Shown here: positions 27,575 to 35,122 of the stretch, piece by piece | Layout: the number at the start of each line of letters is the position of its first letter | Position numbering within the stretch: the stretch's first letter is position 1 | Origin: Actinomycetota bacterium | GTDB lineage: Bacteria > Actinomycetota > Geothermincolia > Geothermincolales > RBG-13-55-18 | DNA: 64,000 bases | Assembly (NCBI GenBank): GCA_030019255.1 | Contig: JASEFK010000013.1 | Coordinates: 1 to 64,000, forward strand | Direction of reading: 5' to 3' | Position numbers and translations under genes: made by a program | The notes under the pieces: model-generated | What the model was told of the DNA's origin: nothing | What the model saw: only the letters and a program-made list of their open reading frames with translations | Databases searched by the model: none

Positions 27575-28490
27575 TCAGGAGCCGGTGTCAGGCCGACCTT
27601 CTCCCCGGGCTGGCCCCGTTCCCTCCTCCAGGCCCAGTTCCCTCATCCTCTCCCGGAGAAAAACCGCCATCTCCGGCGTCCTTTCCACCGCCTCCTTCAC
27701 TGTTCTCGCCGGGTCCAGCGAGATGTAGAATCCTGCATCGCTCGCTTCCCCGGGGTCCAGGGAAGACTTTATCTTTCGCAGCTGATGATGGTAGCCCCCG
27801 GGAAGGGCTTCACCGCGCAAGCGGTAAATATTCCCAGGCTGCCGCAGTTGCCGATGAACCCCCTCGCCACGCCCCGCAGGCTGGGCCCCGGTCCGTCCCC
27901 GCTGAACCAGCCCAGCCCGCTTCCGTGGCTCCCCAGCCGGAGCACCTCTCCGTCCGGGAGGACCCATTCCACCCCCAGCAGGTTCCTGGCGCTGTAACCG
28001 GTGGTAAGCCCCGACCATCCGTACCCGCAGAGGGACGTGGCGCTGGCCAGGGGAGAGGTTCCCGCCCCCGCCCCTATGATGTAGCAATTAAGGCCCCGTT
28101 TCATGGTCTCGGCTTGCAGCTGGGCGCAGCTGACATAGGGTTCCACCACGGCGTACATGTTGCGCTCGTCGATCTCCAGGATGCGGTCCATCCGGCGCAG
28201 GTCCACCTGGACCACGTCTTCCCCGCTGACCATGTTCCATATCCCCCACCCGGTGCTCATGGCCTTGAGCCTCAGGCCGTGCTCGAGACATATCCTGACC
28301 ACCGCCTGCACCTCCGCGGTGCTGCCCGGAAGGACCACCGCCGCCGGGCGGTGGGGACACCAACTGCTGGTCTGCCCCACGATCTCGGCGAAGGCCTGCA
28401 GGCATAGCCGTCCAACACCGCGGGTTCGCGGGAGACGTTCTCCGGCCCCTGGACATGTCGGAGCTCCTCCAGAGCATCCCTTAGCTCCAA
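27575..28490 (-). pseudogene. FAD-binding oxidase (VAO/PCMH family), frameshifted and internally deleted
   Basis: A relic of a vanillyl-alcohol-oxidase-type flavoprotein. It starts at a TTG after GAGGAGGG (LELRDALEELRHVQGPENV), shifts frame near 28405, then continues with AVVLPGSTAEVQAVVRICLE, the FAD-binding VEPYVSCAQLQAE, YIIGAGAGTSPLASAT and GNCGSLGIFTACAVKPFP. At about 27770 it jumps to a different frame with LRKIKSSLDPGEASDAGFYI, the C-terminal signature of the family. Roughly 200 residues of the substrate-binding domain between these parts are missing. At least one frameshift and one large deletion make it non-functional. Confidence 0.8.
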
Positions 28491-28753
28491 TGACCATCCC
28501 TCCTCCCGGAAGCTCCTCCAGACCGACGTGCGGGGAGCGGCACAAGAGCGAGAGCCGCTCATAGCCATGCGGTTCTTTCACCGGAAATCATCCCTGCCAT
28601 GTTTTGAAGCTGCGCCGCCTGGAGACCTATTTCATCCATACATATATCAACTGCTCCCGGACCTTAACCCCCATTCCATCCGTAAAAACAGGTGTTGACG
28701 CGGTGTTCTGGGCCGGCCTGGGCTGTCCAACGTTTTTCGACCATCATGAGGAG

Positions 28754-29113: not shown

Positions 29114-29386
29114 ATGGAGGTCAGGACGTCCGATCGCTTTCCCGGCGTGGAATGGGTGGGGGACCCCGGCGACTTCATCAAGGTGGACGAGTCGCGGTGC
29201 GACGGATGCGCCAACTGCGTGCGGGTCTGCCTTGCGGAATGCTTCGAGATAAAGGGGAAGAAGGCGCGGGTGAGGACCCTGGCCGAATGCATGGAATGCG
29301 CCGCCTGCTGGTACGTGTGCGATAAGGAAGCCATCGTCTTCTCCTGGCCTCCAGGGGGGACCGGTTTCCGCACCGATTGGGGTTGA
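29114..29386 (+). CDS. FixX-like dicluster ferredoxin
   Basis: A 90-residue ferredoxin-like protein with CDGCANCVRVCLAECFEI (about 31-48) and CMECAACWYVCDKEAI (about 62-77), giving two cluster sites. Ferredoxins of this shape accompany FixC/ETF-quinone oxidoreductase-type flavoproteins. ATG at 29114 lies 5 nt after GGAGGAGGTG. The gene is followed after 13 bp by a FixC-like flavoprotein, so the two probably form one electron-transfer unit between a reduced donor and the quinone pool or a reductase (inference). Confidence 0.85.
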   Translation: MEVRTSDRFPGVEWVGDPGDFIKVDESRCDGCANCVRVCLAECFEIKGKKARVRTLAECMECAACWYVCDKEAIVFSWPPGGTGFRTDWG

Positions 29387-29399
29387 GCTACCCGCGGCC

Positions 29400-30755
29400 A
29401 TGGAAAGCTGCGACGTACTGGTGGTGGGGGCGGGCTTCGGGGGACCCGTTGCCGCCCGCAGGTGCGCCCAGGCCGGGCTGGACACCATCATCCTGGAGAG
29501 GGCCAGGGTCCCCGGCGAAAAGGTGGTCTCCGGCCTGGTCATCCCCTTCTACGGGTTCACCTTCGGCCCCGATTTCATCCGCGAGGGCAATCCCCCTATC
29601 GAGAGGCCCATCTGCAGGGTGGTCAACCGCTTCATCCGCGACGGAGAGATATATGCCACTGACAGCACCCTCCGAGTGCCCAAACCCCTAGCCCTGGGAT
29701 ACGCCGCCTACTGCCGGCCCTTCTGCACCTGGCTGGCCGACCGGGCCGTGGAGGCGGGGGTGGAGCTGCGCACCTCCACCACCGCCGTGGAGCCCATCCT
29801 GGAAAAGGGGGCGGTGAAGGGAGTGATCACCGACCGGGGGGAGGAGATACGCTGCAAGGTGCTCATCGACGCCGGGGGTACCCAGAACCGGCTGGCCATC
29901 CAGGCCGGGCTGCGCCGCAAGTACCTGCCGGAGGCCCTGGAGCTCTACATGGTATGGGACTTCGAGATGGCCAAGGAGGACGTGGACGAGACCTTCGGCC
30001 TCTCCATGGAGTTCTTCCATGCCCTCCCGGAGGAGGGCATCGGAGCCCCGCTGGGCTTCGGTTCCACCCTGTACATCTTCACCTACCGGGAGAGCATCCA
30101 CCCCGGCCTGGGGCAGTTCCTGGTAACCCGAGGGGAGATTCCCAACCTAGCCAGGCTCCTCCCGCGTTACTTCGAGAACTTCCAGAAAAAGGTAACCCGC
30201 TGGAAACGGGACATTGCCCCCAAAGTGAAACTGCGAGCGGTCACCTGGGACGTCTGCCCCATCTACGCCGGCCTTATCCCGGAGACCAGGAACATGCCCG
30301 TCTACGGGGACGGCATCCTGATCATCGGCGACGCCGCCGGCTTCGAGGCCTCCGCCTTTGGGGACGGGGTGCCCAGCGCCTGGTTCTCCGCGGAGCTGGC
30401 CGCCGAGGTGGCCGTGGAGGCGGTGAGGAAGGGGGACGCCTCCCGCGATACTCTGCGTGAATACGAAAGGAAGGTCTGGGAGCATCCCTACATCACCTGG
30501 ATAATCACCGACTGGCGAAGGTGGGACCTGCGCAAGGTGCTGGTATCGAGGAGCGAGGCGGAGCTGCGGCGCATGATCCGCGACCACTGGGGAGTCGGGG
30601 CCTTCCGTTACCGCTACAGCGGCCGCCCCCTGTTGAAGGCGGCGCGCGAGGCCCTGCGGCGCGATCCCCGGGCTCCTGTCAAGTGGATGGAAATGTTTAC
30701 CAGGTATTATCACAACTGGGAAGAGAACCGCTGCGACCCCCTTTCAACTTCCTGA
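29400..30755 (+). CDS. FixC-like FAD-dependent oxidoreductase
   Basis: A 451-residue flavoprotein of the FixC/geranylgeranyl-reductase/ETF-QO group. FAD fold: DVLVVGAGFGGPVAARRCAQ (residues 5-24) then LERARVPGEKVVSGLVIP. Second FAD motif: GILIIGDAAGFEASAFGDGV (about 303-322). The C-terminal part has conserved aromatic residues but no ferredoxin domain; that role falls to the adjacent FixX-like gene, upstream by 13 bp. No fixAB (ETF) genes are present, so the electron donor may be an unlinked acyl-CoA dehydrogenase/ETF, or the pair may reduce a lipid double bond. Gene order FixX then FixC is the reverse of the usual fixABCX. Confidence 0.85.
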   Translation: MESCDVLVVGAGFGGPVAARRCAQAGLDTIILERARVPGEKVVSGLVIPFYGFTFGPDFIREGNPPIERPICRVVNRFIRDGEIYATDSTLRVPKPLALGYAAYCRPFCTWLADRAVEAGVELRTSTTAVEPILEKGAVKGVITDRGEEIRCKVLIDAGGTQNRLAIQAGLRRKYLPEALELYMVWDFEMAKEDVDETFGLSMEFFHALPEEGIGAPLGFGSTLYIFTYRESIHPGLGQFLVTRGEIPNLARLLPRYFENFQKKVTRWKRDIAPKVKLRAVTWDVCPIYAGLIPETRNMPVYGDGILIIGDAAGFEASAFGDGVPSAWFSAELAAEVAVEAVRKGDASRDTLREYERKVWEHPYITWIITDWRRWDLRKVLVSRSEAELRRMIRDHWGVGAFRYRYSGRPLLKAAREALRRDPRAPVKWMEMFTRYYHNWEENRCDPLSTS

Positions 30756-31338: not shown

Positions 31339-32994
31339 ATGAGCGTCATTCCGGACAAGTTTAAGCTTCTTTTCGACCGCCGGCTCACACTTTCCAACTT
31401 TTCCCAGAAATTGGCGGACATACGGGGAGACAAGACCATGTCCGTCCTCCACGAGCCGCTCCGCTACCAAGATTTTCCCCTGAAGCGGGTGAGCTACCAG
31501 GACGCCGCCCGCTTCGCCTACCGGGTGAGCGCCTTTCTCCGCGAGATCGGGGTCAAGCCTGGGGAGAGGGTGGCCCTGTGCACCTCCAACAACGCCGACC
31601 TTCCCATGTCCATCATGGGCACCATTGCCGCCGGGGCGGTGGCCGTTCCTCTCAACTTCATGCTCAAGGCGGAGGAGATACGCTACATCGTGGAGAACTG
31701 CGGGGCGGAGACCCTGGTCGTCGATTCCGAGGTCCTGGCAGGCAACATCCGCAGGAAGGAAAACCTCCCCACCATCAAGCGCTGGGTGATGGCCGGGCCG
31801 CGGGAGGAATGCCCTTCAGGGTTTATCTCCCTGGACGAAGGCTTGAGCGCGGTCGGCGAGGCGGAACCGGTGGACCTGGATCCCGACCAGCCGGTGGCCA
31901 TCTTCTACACCTCGGGCACCACCGGCTATCCCAAGGGAGCGGTGATGTCCTCCCGTAACCTCGTCACCGCCCAGAAGATCGCCGCAGCCATCATCCCCGT
32001 GGGTCCGCGCAGTAAGGGACTGTATTGCCTTCCCGCGTCCCACGTGATGGGCTTCGGGTGCATCATCATGGGCTGTTGCGTGGGCCTGGAGGCCTATTAC
32101 ATGCGCCACTTCTCCCCCCGGGAAGCCCTGGAGGCCATGGTGCGGGAGAAGGTCAACCTCTTCGTGGGGGTACCCACCATGTACGCTATGATGCTCGCCG
32201 AAGGGCTGGACAAGTACGACCTTTCCAGCCTCAGGATGCTGGGGAGCGCCGCCGACGCCATGCCCGAGGAACTGGTGGAGACCTTCCGGAGGAAAGGCTC
32301 CTTCATTAAGCTGGGTCCCTTCCGAACCCGAGCCCTCTTCGTAGAGGTCTACGGCATGGTGGAGCTGGCCGGAACGGCCACCCTGAAACTGGCCCTCCCC
32401 GGTATCAAGTACCCGCGGGGCTGCGTGGGCTGGCCGGTGTGGCCGGTCCGGGTGCGCATCCTGGACGAATACGGCAACGTCCTCCCTCCCGGGGAAGTGG
32501 GAGAGGTGGCCGTAGCCGGGCCGGGAGTGACCAAGGGTTACTGGAACGACCCCCAAGCCACCCGGGAGCTCATAAGCGACGGCTGGCTGCGTACCGGGGA
32601 CATGGGTAAGAAGGACCGCCTGGGCAGGCTGTACTTCGTGGACCGCAAGAAGGATGTTATCAAATGCGGAGGCTACTCCGTGTTCTCCGTGGAGGTGGAG
32701 AAGGAGGTCCTGGCCCACCCCGCCGTGTCCGACGCCGCCGTGATCGGAGTTCCCCATCCTACCAAGGGGCAGGTGCCGGTGGCCGTGGTGACCCTCAAGC
32801 CGGAGACGCGTGCCTCCGAGGAGGAGATCCTTTCCTGGTGCCGGGAGCACATCGCCGGTTACAAGTGCCCGCGCGCGGTGCGCATCATCCCACCGGAGGA
32901 GATGCCTTACGGAGCCACCCTCAAGGTTCGCAAGCTGGAACTGCGCCACCGCTTCTCTGACCTCTTCACCGGGGAACGCGTTCCCACCCCCTAA
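31339..32994 (+). CDS. AMP-forming acyl-CoA synthetase/ligase
   Basis: A 551-residue adenylate-forming enzyme that activates a carboxylate with ATP and CoA. Core motifs: IFYTSGTTGYPKGAVMSS (A3, about 192-209), LPASHVMGFG, VEVYGMVELAGTATL (A5), GWLRTGDMGKKDRLGRLYFVDRKKDVIKCGGYSV (A7-A8, about 416-450) and the C-terminal Lys region PYGATLKVRKLELR in place of the usual PRNxxGKI/VLK. Length is standard. Substrate cannot be read; the neighbourhood (unknown two-repeat protein, PhlG-like hydrolase, S15 hydrolase, IclR regulator) suggests an aromatic or branched acid. The upstream region holds three spaced repeats. Confidence 0.85.
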   Translation: MSVIPDKFKLLFDRRLTLSNFSQKLADIRGDKTMSVLHEPLRYQDFPLKRVSYQDAARFAYRVSAFLREIGVKPGERVALCTSNNADLPMSIMGTIAAGAVAVPLNFMLKAEEIRYIVENCGAETLVVDSEVLAGNIRRKENLPTIKRWVMAGPREECPSGFISLDEGLSAVGEAEPVDLDPDQPVAIFYTSGTTGYPKGAVMSSRNLVTAQKIAAAIIPVGPRSKGLYCLPASHVMGFGCIIMGCCVGLEAYYMRHFSPREALEAMVREKVNLFVGVPTMYAMMLAEGLDKYDLSSLRMLGSAADAMPEELVETFRRKGSFIKLGPFRTRALFVEVYGMVELAGTATLKLALPGIKYPRGCVGWPVWPVRVRILDEYGNVLPPGEVGEVAVAGPGVTKGYWNDPQATRELISDGWLRTGDMGKKDRLGRLYFVDRKKDVIKCGGYSVFSVEVEKEVLAHPAVSDAAVIGVPHPTKGQVPVAVVTLKPETRASEEEILSWCREHIAGYKCPRAVRIIPPEEMPYGATLKVRKLELRHRFSDLFTGERVPTP

Positions 32995-33051
32995 TCCGTT
33001 TATAATATACTCGCGCTTCTGGGAGGGAGCGACCGGAGAGGGGTGATGGGA

Positions 33052-34134
33052 ATGAGGCTTCTGCGATGTCGGTGTGGCGCACCGTTATGGTTTCCCCGCA
33101 GCATCAGGTGGAACGACAACGGCACCATTTCCCAGTTGTTTCAGAGGAGAAGCCGGGTAGTGATCGTCGAGTCGGACATCTTCAACGAGGTTTTCTCCCG
33201 CATCGAGGAGAAGATGGGAATATCCATCGGCCACCTGGTCTTCGAGGCGCAGCGCGACGCCGCCCGGGAAGTGATCGACACCCTCATCCGGCGCCCGCCA
33301 TTCAACCTCTTCCGGATAGGACCTTGCAGGCACCTGGTAGTCCGCTATTTCTGCCGCCTTGCGGCGGCCACGGGCCAGGCTTATGCCGAGGTCCTAGAGT
33401 ACAAGCCCGGCGCTTACGGTGAGGCGATAATACGCAACCCCTACAACCGCGAGCTCATGGCTGCCATAGTGCTGGGCGCTTTCGAGAGCCTGGAAGGAAG
33501 CCCCTTCGTCCATTCCTGGAAGAAAGTGGGAGGAGACGACGTTATCCATATCGAGCCCTCCGGTGCCAAGCCGGAGATCTCGGAGCGCATGCGGGTGGAG
33601 CTCCCGCCCTCCAAAGCCAACGGTCTCCCGCTCGCCAAGTGCCGGATATGTGGATTCCCTTCGGAGCTTGGTTATTTGGAGTGGCGCGAGAACGAGGGCA
33701 AGATAATCGACACGCGCCGCGGCGTGCGCATGACCTTCCTCGACGGATACACCCCGGAGGTGGTCTTCCGGGAGCTGGAAAAGGAGCTGGGGGAGGACAT
33801 CTACCCGCTTATCGTGCAAGCCCAGAAGGAAACCACTCTAAGGCACCTGCAGGATCTAGGGCTCACCGATCGAAACGGTGTTAATACCGAAACGGAGCGC
33901 ACGGCCCGATACCACAAGGTCCTGGAACCGCTTCCCCTGTGGGGTCAGGGTTACGCCAGGGAACTCAGGCACGAGCCCGGCTTCCTGGAGGTGGTCGTGG
34001 ACAACCCCTACAGCAACCCCCTTCTCGCCGGACACATGGCCGCCGTGTTCGAGGCCGTGGAGGGAAGAGATGCGGAGGTAGAATGGGAGAGACTGGACTC
34101 CTCCACCACCCGTTTCCATGTCCGGAGCGCGTGA
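33052..34134 (+). CDS. Unknown protein made of two homologous halves, each opening with a Cys-rich motif
   Basis: A 360-residue protein I do not recognise. It is an internal duplication. Half 1 opens with LLRCRCGAPLWFPRSIRWND, then VFSRIEEKMGISIGHLVFEA, then EAIIRNPYNRELMAAIVLGA. Half 2 opens with LAKCRICGFPSELGYLEWRE, then VFRELEKELGEDIYPLIVQA, then LEVVVDNPYSNPLLAGHMAA; both end in a strand before a D/H-rich turn. Each half therefore has CxCG or CxxCG, a DG- or ND-containing strand, a long helix and an NPYxxxL motif. No signal peptide or membrane segment. ATG 33052 follows GGAGAGGGG by 7 nt. It starts 57 bp after the ligase, so one operon is likely. A small-ligand or acyl-carrier role is possible, but nothing decides it. 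Confidence 0.8.
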   Translation: MRLLRCRCGAPLWFPRSIRWNDNGTISQLFQRRSRVVIVESDIFNEVFSRIEEKMGISIGHLVFEAQRDAAREVIDTLIRRPPFNLFRIGPCRHLVVRYFCRLAAATGQAYAEVLEYKPGAYGEAIIRNPYNRELMAAIVLGAFESLEGSPFVHSWKKVGGDDVIHIEPSGAKPEISERMRVELPPSKANGLPLAKCRICGFPSELGYLEWRENEGKIIDTRRGVRMTFLDGYTPEVVFRELEKELGEDIYPLIVQAQKETTLRHLQDLGLTDRNGVNTETERTARYHKVLEPLPLWGQGYARELRHEPGFLEVVVDNPYSNPLLAGHMAAVFEAVEGRDAEVEWERLDSSTTRFHVRSA

Positions 34135-34240: not shown

Positions 34241-35122
34241 TTATTCGATCCGACCTCCCATCTCGGCGTAGAGCTCCGGCAGGAAGGAGGCCAGGTTGTT
34301 GTACTCCATGAGGCTGTGCACGCAGTTGTTGCGGGCCAGGTCCAGCATCCGGAAGGGCATGGGCCTTCTCACCCGTACCGGCCTTCCCCCGCGCATGGTG
34401 TAGCCGATCCAGTACCGGCTGCGGTACTCCACGCCGCCTTCCACGGGGCGCACGGCGTGCAGGAAGACGCAGAAGGGCGTGCGCAAGAGGCTCAGGGTGA
34501 CGTCGGCGCAGTAGGCCCGGCTGATGTTCGGCTCCCGGAAGAGCTCCATGTCCAGCCCGAACTCGTGCGGGGGATAGAAGCGGATGGCCAGCTTCTGCGC
34601 CGACTTGAGGTTGAATCCCTCCACCGGGTAATGGACGCTCCCCTCGTTCCTCACCCGCAGGGGGATGCCCGAGCTGTCCAGGTGGCGCGCCGGGTCCCGC
34701 ACCCCGATGTCCACGTGCGCGGGAGGGCACCACAGGGCGTAGCGCAGCCCCTCCAGGGGATGCCAGTTGAACCACCAGTCCAGCATCTCGGGGGTGACCC
34801 CCGGCATGCGCACCAGGGTGGCAGCGAAGCCGCTCCCGTCGGGCATTACCGTGTAGCCGGTCTCCACCTCCAGGTATCCTGGCCGGAGGAGGTCGTTCCG
34901 CGCTTCGACGGGCGTGGCGGAGTCGGGGTCCACCGGGCCGGCGTTCACCCTCTCCAGGTCCCCGGGAGGGATCTCCGCCAGTTCCTTATGGAAATATTTA
35001 GCATATGGCTTCTTCTCCTCCTCGGGGGTAAGTTTCCGACGGGGCATTCCCCGCAGGTGATCCATGGTCAGGGGATGGGGAAAGATCGCTCCCATGCGCA
35101 CCAACAGGTTACCGATACCCAT
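34241..35122 (-). CDS. PhlG-like (DAPG hydrolase) C-C bond hydrolase
   Basis: A 293-residue protein matching the 2,4-diacetylphloroglucinol hydrolase family. Recognisable segments are GYTVMPDGSGFAATLVRMPG, VTPEMLDWWFNWHPLEGLRY, LWCPPAHVDIGV and HSLMEYNNLASFLPELYAE; the family fold is a Bet v 1-like cavity with a zinc bound by His and Glu residues. PhlG removes an acetyl group from acylphloroglucinols by C-C cleavage. Length agrees with PhlG. No Phl biosynthetic genes are present, so it probably acts on another acylated phenolic or beta-diketone. It is the last of three adjacent minus-strand genes (S15 hydrolase, HXXEE protein, this gene). Confidence 0.75.
   Translation of the reverse strand: MGIGNLLVRMGAIFPHPLTMDHLRGMPRRKLTPEEEKKPYAKYFHKELAEIPPGDLERVNAGPVDPDSATPVEARNDLLRPGYLEVETGYTVMPDGSGFAATLVRMPGVTPEMLDWWFNWHPLEGLRYALWCPPAHVDIGVRDPARHLDSSGIPLRVRNEGSVHYPVEGFNLKSAQKLAIRFYPPHEFGLDMELFREPNISRAYCADVTLSLLRTPFCVFLHAVRPVEGGVEYRSRYWIGYTMRGGRPVRVRRPMPFRMLDLARNNCVHSLMEYNNLASFLPELYAEMGGRIE

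Follow-up and report, generated by a model that had tools for sequence, protein, structure and literature searches.

The gene at 33052-34134 of the window (the whole stretch of 64,000 nucleotides analysed here) encodes a duplicated protein in which, judging from predicted structures, each half almost certainly has the V4R/aromatic-sensor fold, consisting of an XylR_N-like hairpin and a V4R-like alpha/beta core. What is new here is the family to which this protein belongs: a branch of the V4R superfamily that has diverged strongly, has expanded greatly and is unnamed in Pfam and NCBIfam. The features of the locus are collected in Table 1.

Table 1. Features of the V4R-fold gene and its surroundings, in window coordinates.
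Feature	Position	Strand	Support
AMP-binding (acyl-CoA ligase type) enzyme, upstream neighbour	31339..32994	+	PF00501, E 4.8e-78
TATAAT, candidate promoter -10 element	33001..33006	+	TATAAT also upstream of the L050 and L051 orthologues, by eye
Gene for predicted duplicated V4R-fold protein, 360 aa	33052..34134	+	Open frame; AlphaFold model; PDB fold matches
Repeat 1: Cys knuckle and predicted V4R/aromatic-sensor fold	33052..33609	+	VIA match to PoxR sensor 5frx_A
Cys knuckle 1, C6-x-C8 in the window protein (CxxC in most relatives)	33067..33075	+	Cys pair in 39/39 rows reaching this end
NPY block of repeat 1, RNPYNREL, strand into last helix	33433..33456	+	Conserved columns; model DSSP
Repeat 2: Cys knuckle and predicted V4R/aromatic-sensor fold	33613..34131	+	Modelled alone; Foldseek and VIA matches to MopR
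Cys knuckle 2, C197-x-x-C200	33640..33651	+	Cys pair in 40/40 rows
NPY block of repeat 2, DNPYSNPL	34000..34023	+	N318 nearly invariant

The two repeats and their fold

Besides the ATG at 33052, a GTG at 33043 and an ATG at 33046 are possible alternative starts. The two halves of the protein are homologous and represent a duplication. They share 28% identity over 160 columns (E 2e-11), with a Smith-Waterman score of 117 against a maximum of 58 among 1000 shuffles, and their profiles (40 relatives) match each other at 99.9% (E 1.8e-32), or at 99.8% (E 3e-29) without realignment, while column-shuffled half profiles reached at most 0.9% (8 shuffles). The alignment and these controls rule out a chance repeat. 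A preliminary description of this DNA had already pointed to two repeated halves, and the motifs that it named are all present, namely CRCG (residues 6-9) and CRICG (197-201), and RNPYNREL (128-135) and DNPYSNPL (317-324). No fused output domain was found in the window protein, the chain of which stops after repeat 2.

The same description had matched the protein to no curated family, and Pfam and NCBIfam indeed returned none at E values up to 10, either for the whole protein or for each half. Sequence searches of the PDB gave weak and mutually inconsistent matches only, with best E values of 0.0064 and 0.0073. The former belonged to a phmmer similarity to adenylate kinase, which was rejected, as it was absent both from the profile-search matches and from the fold matches listed.

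The AlphaFold model of the whole protein had a pLDDT of 88.8 and a pTM of 0.85, and that of half 2 alone a pLDDT of 91.3. With the whole model, Foldseek found 11 PDB matches at an E value of 0.001 or better, the top ones being the sensor domains of the phenol sensors MopR and PoxR (best E 3.3e-4), and VIA placed PoxR (5frx_A) on residues 3-179 with a Z of 13.2 and an rmsd of 3.3 over 162 residues. Half 2 by itself matched MopR in both programs (Foldseek E 2.3e-7, TM 0.67 on the query; VIA Z 13.6, rmsd 2.8, 151/173 residues). This match spans MopR residues 15-196 and thus includes the hairpin part at the N-terminus as well as the V4R core. After the aromatic sensors, VIA listed TRAPP Bet3/Trs33, archaeal V4R proteins, BcsD and H-NOX. 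Among the best 50 VIA matches listed for half 2, 49 were titled as V4R-type sensor or V4R protein, TRAPP, BcsD/CesD, YslB, H-NOX or guanylate cyclase, and the remaining entry (3kxc) carries only the title “Mutant transport protein”. The models fit the core of the V4R superfamily (NO-signalling and Golgi-transport ligand-binding), an alpha/beta arrangement with helices on one face of a twisted, antiparallel, four-stranded sheet. Taken together, the structure matches of the whole protein and of half 2 indicate that each half comes near to a complete aromatic-sensor module. The earlier suggestion of a new duplicated fold therefore had to be abandoned: structure prediction of the half and of the whole, which had been proposed as its check, led to the known module of MopR, PoxR and DmpR. 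The best-known sensor members of the V4R fold bind aromatic ligands and act as dimers.

Relation to V4R proteins

The likeness to V4R proteins appears to go beyond mere shape. When the profiles of both halves were pooled and compared with ordinary V4R proteins of the same class (a reference set of 20 proteins, taken from PF02830 loci and chosen by their Cys-motif pattern), the match reached 92.6% (E 4.4e-7), whereas column shuffles gave at most 0.4% (n=20) and the reversed profile 0.2%. Used singly, half 2 matched the ordinary V4R profile at 86% and half 1 weakly, at 47%. The absence of any recognisable family thus holds for the curated collections, which miss the protein, but not for a sensitive profile search against the V4R proteins of its own class. 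On these profile comparisons, the window protein is a highly divergent tandem V4R-fold protein that is homologous to V4R.

Gly pairs in helices 2 and 5 are given as a hallmark of V4R/Bet3 in PMC2253512. In the family, the pair in the last helix consists of small residues (Ala/Gly) in 95-100% of rows; along the long second helix just one position is mostly Ala, Gly or Ser (82-88% of rows), and the pair is not clearly kept.

PF02830 (V4R) itself was absent from the 25 Pfam families shown, out of 47, for 40 members. A search of the class with PF02830 identified 22 places in 12 of the 31 genomes, with 0-4 per genome, and none coincided with the family places listed. The genome of the window (G000) has two such places, on contig C4 near 95 kb, outside the family. 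Ordinary V4R genes adjoin as pairs in several genomes (G000:C4:95197-96168, that is L122 and L130; L112, L113, L116, L124 and L126). In genus g6, these pairs adjoin an AMP-ligase and genes that we take to resemble subunits of 2-hydroxyacyl-CoA dehydratase or benzoyl-CoA reductase.

Family size, distribution and age

With the window protein as query (P0001), matches were found in all 31 class genomes covered here and in 0/28 other genomes of the phylum. A profile survey of 396 sampled Actinomycetota genomes at E 1e-6, in which scoring was limited to five first-look candidates per genome, gave the same picture (31/31 in the class, 0/365 others). When 84,980 species were scanned by pattern with the single protein, a procedure that detects close relatives only, 10 loci were returned, all with Actinomycetota titles, and no family match was found on plasmids. 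Among the literature matches listed, which include few subscription papers, no title describing the family was found.

The twelve genomes counted in full contain 3, 3, 5, 10, 16, 19, 20, 21, 25, 29, 39 and 53 matches, pieces of split genes included; the 53 belong to G014, a genome of about 3.9 Mb that is marked as 6% contaminated. Candidatus Solincola tengchongensis (L050), a close relative from a genus that NCBI assigns to the class Candidatus Geothermincolia, gave 19. G025 has the fewest matches in the class, namely two. The genome of the window carries 15 uninterrupted full-length copies, and six further matches are pieces of two interrupted copies (C4:202464-203525 and C3:21165-21730), which reflect either decay or assembly errors; the gene run beside the former presumably encodes a phosphate transporter. 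Since nearly all of the matches listed cover both repeats, the tandem is the normal form of the family.

Recent amplification was considered as the source of the copies in the genome of the window, and it was ruled out for the set as a whole by their scatter on a 54-member tree: the 15 copies require 13 changes, compared with a shuffled mean of 13.4, and 257 of 500 shuffles were as low. This tree includes all but two of the 56 called members, the omitted ones being short pieces of a single interrupted copy; its regions from other genomes were picked around known members, and three long-branched rows are of unsure placement. On this tree, the paralogues of this genome are anciently diverged. 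One adjacent pair (L070) is present in the genome of the window. Runs of three or four neighbouring members occur elsewhere (G014:C99, G027:C210, G028:C83 and C167) and point to local tandem amplification in some lineages.

A proposed role as metabolite receptors

We lean towards reading the family as stand-alone receptors that would bind hydrophobic or aromatic metabolites and signal to partners in trans. A fused pair of domains, the lack of an output domain and the presence of many old paralogues with differing neighbours are best explained by dedicated metabolite receptors acting on separate partners. The protein would be cytosolic and would comprise two fused copies of the aromatic-sensor fold, and the tandem is most likely a one-chain version of the dimer that domains of PoxR, MopR and Bet3 type form from two chains. 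The Cys knuckle in front of each copy would hold Zn. Each paralogue would have a ligand of its own, either a small hydrophobic or aromatic metabolite or a CoA-ester product, in one or both pockets, and would change shape upon binding it. Lacking an output domain, it would pass the signal to a separate partner, either a response regulator or a metabolic enzyme encoded nearby. Possible, if doubtful, is the fuller picture of a class-specific repertoire. Each genome would then hold tens of V4R receptors built as single-chain pseudo-dimers, in which a Zn(Cys)4 staple would join the two repeats; every receptor would have a ligand of its own and would act in trans on metabolic enzymes and response regulators. 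Such a repertoire would represent a form of actinobacterial metabolite sensing in which the aromatic-sensor module is uncoupled from sigma-54 activators.

Neighbouring genes

The main rival to receptors, itself unlikely, is a family of soluble carriers, in which the pocket would hold an acyl, isoprenoid or aromatic group and hand it over to adjacent enzymes without signalling, much as palmitate is held in a Bet3-type channel. The preliminary description had raised a similar possibility, a ligand or acyl-group carrier in a ligase operon, and had noted the acyl-CoA ligase upstream. Its spacing was correct: 57 bp separate the ligase stop from the ATG at 33052, and 48 bp from the GTG at 33043. The order of ligase and gene is kept in two Solincola genomes (L050 and L051), but with gaps of 371 and 368 bp, so that the linkage was observed in three genomes, that of the window included. 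No ligase was detected by phmmer around four more distant orthologue-like copies (L052, L073, L074 and L075). The case for a ligase operon is weak, since two close relatives have a gap of about 370 bp and a TATAAT element lies in front of the gene; to judge from this element, the gene may well have its own promoter.

Upstream of the ligase, a small ferredoxin gene is followed by that of an FAD enzyme (29114-30755), which presumably resembles geranylgeranyl reductases; the two recur near the family member in L050, L051, L052 and L075. Further upstream, the gene at 27769-28581, which we take to resemble FAD-linked oxidases, is short and looks broken, while the syntenic gene in L050 (2992-4635) is an open frame of 547 aa. 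On the other side, a protein with a DAPG-hydrolase domain (34241-35122; PF18089, E 5.6e-63) adjoins an HXXEE protein and an X-Pro-peptidase-type enzyme. A protein of similar appearance starts at L169:14115.

The AMP-ligase and the FAD enzyme upstream in the window would suit carriers, as does a TRAPP subunit with covalent palmitate (6aq3) among the fold matches. Across the family, the neighbours were assessed as the 60 genes within two places of 17 called pieces in the genome of the window, and compared with 239 genes from 20 random regions of the same genome. Acyl-CoA dehydrogenases, which would also favour carriers, were more frequent among the neighbours (4/60 vs 3/239, p 0.03 uncorrected), but all four come from two loci only (L060 and L071). 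AMP-ligases (2/60 vs 5/239, p 0.43) and FAD enzymes (2/60 vs 7/239, p 0.57) were not enriched, and neither were radical SAM enzymes (3/60 vs 3/239, p 0.10). These counts give the acyl-carrier idea no direct support. The earlier proposal of ligand binding agrees with the fold, the best-known members of which bind small hydrophobic ligands. The neighbours also differ between paralogues, and this too speaks against carriers serving adjacent enzymes; several paralogues adjoin housekeeping genes, which counts against the receptor reading.

Response regulators were found within two genes of members in 5/60 cases, compared with 2/239 control genes (p 0.004 uncorrected) and, for Pfam Response_reg, with at most one of 60 central control genes. 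A second set, which repeats orthologous loci and takes its controls from the genome of the window although its neighbours come from other genomes, gave 7/151 (p 0.019). The enrichment is small and concerns one of five families compared with controls, gene boundaries were set by a simple caller of our own, which called no member in three of 40 other-genome regions (L088, L091 and L092), and we treat all neighbour enrichments as leads, not proof. No response regulator was found by Pfam among the neighbours of the window copy. Two gene orders are conserved across genera, with labels that derive partly from Pfam and partly from the appearance of the sequences. One, in G000, G003, G006 and G007, consists of a single-domain response regulator, the family protein and two acyl-CoA-dehydrogenase-type enzymes; the other, in G000, G006 and G007, runs from a kinase through an FAD enzyme and a radical-SAM-type enzyme to the family protein. 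In L072, the family copy ends a run that presumably encodes an ABC transporter of the branched-chain-amino-acid type.

Conserved cysteines and the remaining alternatives

The conserved cysteines of the family are confined to the two knuckles. In the 40-row alignment, the Cys pair is present in 39 of 39 rows at the first knuckle (row L040 starts at a contig end) and in 40 of 40 at the second, while the next Cys-richest column has Cys in 10/40 rows. Both knuckles are kept in 53 of 54 full-length proteins of a partly overlapping set (52 by pattern, with L170, CRQCGFA, added by eye), and L154 has lost one knuckle Cys. According to PMC10715001, three Cys and one Glu hold a structural Zn in known sensors of the MopR type, and a His-Trp pair binds phenol. 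Among the conserved cysteines of the 40-row alignment, no counterpart of the three-Cys-one-Glu site was found. Since each repeat has no more than two conserved Cys, a single Zn held jointly by both repeats is an appealing idea; the knuckles would bind Zn, perhaps in one inter-repeat Cys4 site.

It is improbable that the knuckles, and not the pocket, do the sensing, which would make the family metal or redox sensors. The knuckles are among its most conserved features, and zf-Mss51, a Pfam zinc finger and the most frequent family match among members (21/40, weak, best E 1.2e-5), may be read as detecting them. A precedent is MsvR, a redox-sensing regulator of methanogens, in which cysteines of the V4R domain affect DNA binding according to PMC3729527. 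In the family, however, each repeat begins with its knuckle, whereas Cys occur near the end in the ordinary V4R proteins of the class, and metal or redox sensing presents no obvious need for 15 or more diverged paralogues.

We give equally little credence to scaffold or assembly proteins of the TRAPP/BcsD type, which would act without ligands. Trs33 and BcsD act as structural subunits, and the second half of the whole model matched Trs33 (Z 10.8) and the cellulose-synthesis subunit AxCesD (3a8e_C, Z 10.1; presumably a synonym of BcsD) as well as MJ1460 (Z 9.7). Aromatic sensors nevertheless outrank Trs33 and AxCesD for both models, and the genes are mostly dispersed, beside unrelated functions. 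A role as an enzyme or enzyme accessory like BchJ, the 4-vinyl reductase factor that is the source of the V4R name, is very improbable: linkage to redox enzymes in places and charged or polar columns conserved across both repeats (e.g., R35/R226, E145 and the Gln-Arg/Lys pair of the long helix) would fit it, but no catalytic signature was recognised and the neighbouring enzymes vary widely between paralogues.

Comparison with known systems

Several known proteins are related to the family in fold. The core fold is shared with TRAPP Bet3/Trs33/TPC6 and Asgard TRAPPC3 (Z about 9-12, below the aromatic sensors), including the small-residue pair in the last helix, but these are single-domain proteins with an eukaryotic or Asgard trafficking context, and we know of no such Cys knuckle in them. 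The V4R protein MJ1460 is a fold match (2oso, Z 11.1 but rmsd 8.3; 2osd, Z 9.8, rmsd 5.0). Pfam V4R (PF02830) is similar in the profile of its core (92.6%), yet the family lies below Pfam detection. MsvR likewise has a V4R domain with functional cysteines, but it includes a helix-turn-helix part, and cysteines of the kind of its C206, C232 and C240 are absent from the family.

In the counts found, V4R proteins are few per genome, as with the 0-4 places of PF02830 in the class, in contrast to up to 53 family matches in one genome. Seven V4R proteins in Ignicoccus hospitalis are called unusually many for an archaeon in PMC2253512.

The closest likeness is to the sensor module (XylR_N and V4R) of MopR, PoxR and DmpR/CapR, the fold of which is common to each half over nearly the whole module, at 8-17% identity in structural alignments. 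Unlike these regulators, the window protein has two modules in tandem and neither an AAA+ nor an HTH part, and its family has N-terminal Cys knuckles instead of the MopR-type Zn site. The listed full-length relatives occupy open frames of mostly 340-490 aa (longest listed, 605). If the preferred reading as receptors is correct, this little-studied class would have a sensory repertoire that has escaped annotation, made up of small soluble proteins and ready to be screened for ligands. DmpR is reportedly the basis of phenol biosensors, and the family would then offer a natural two-in-one version of the fold that is used there.
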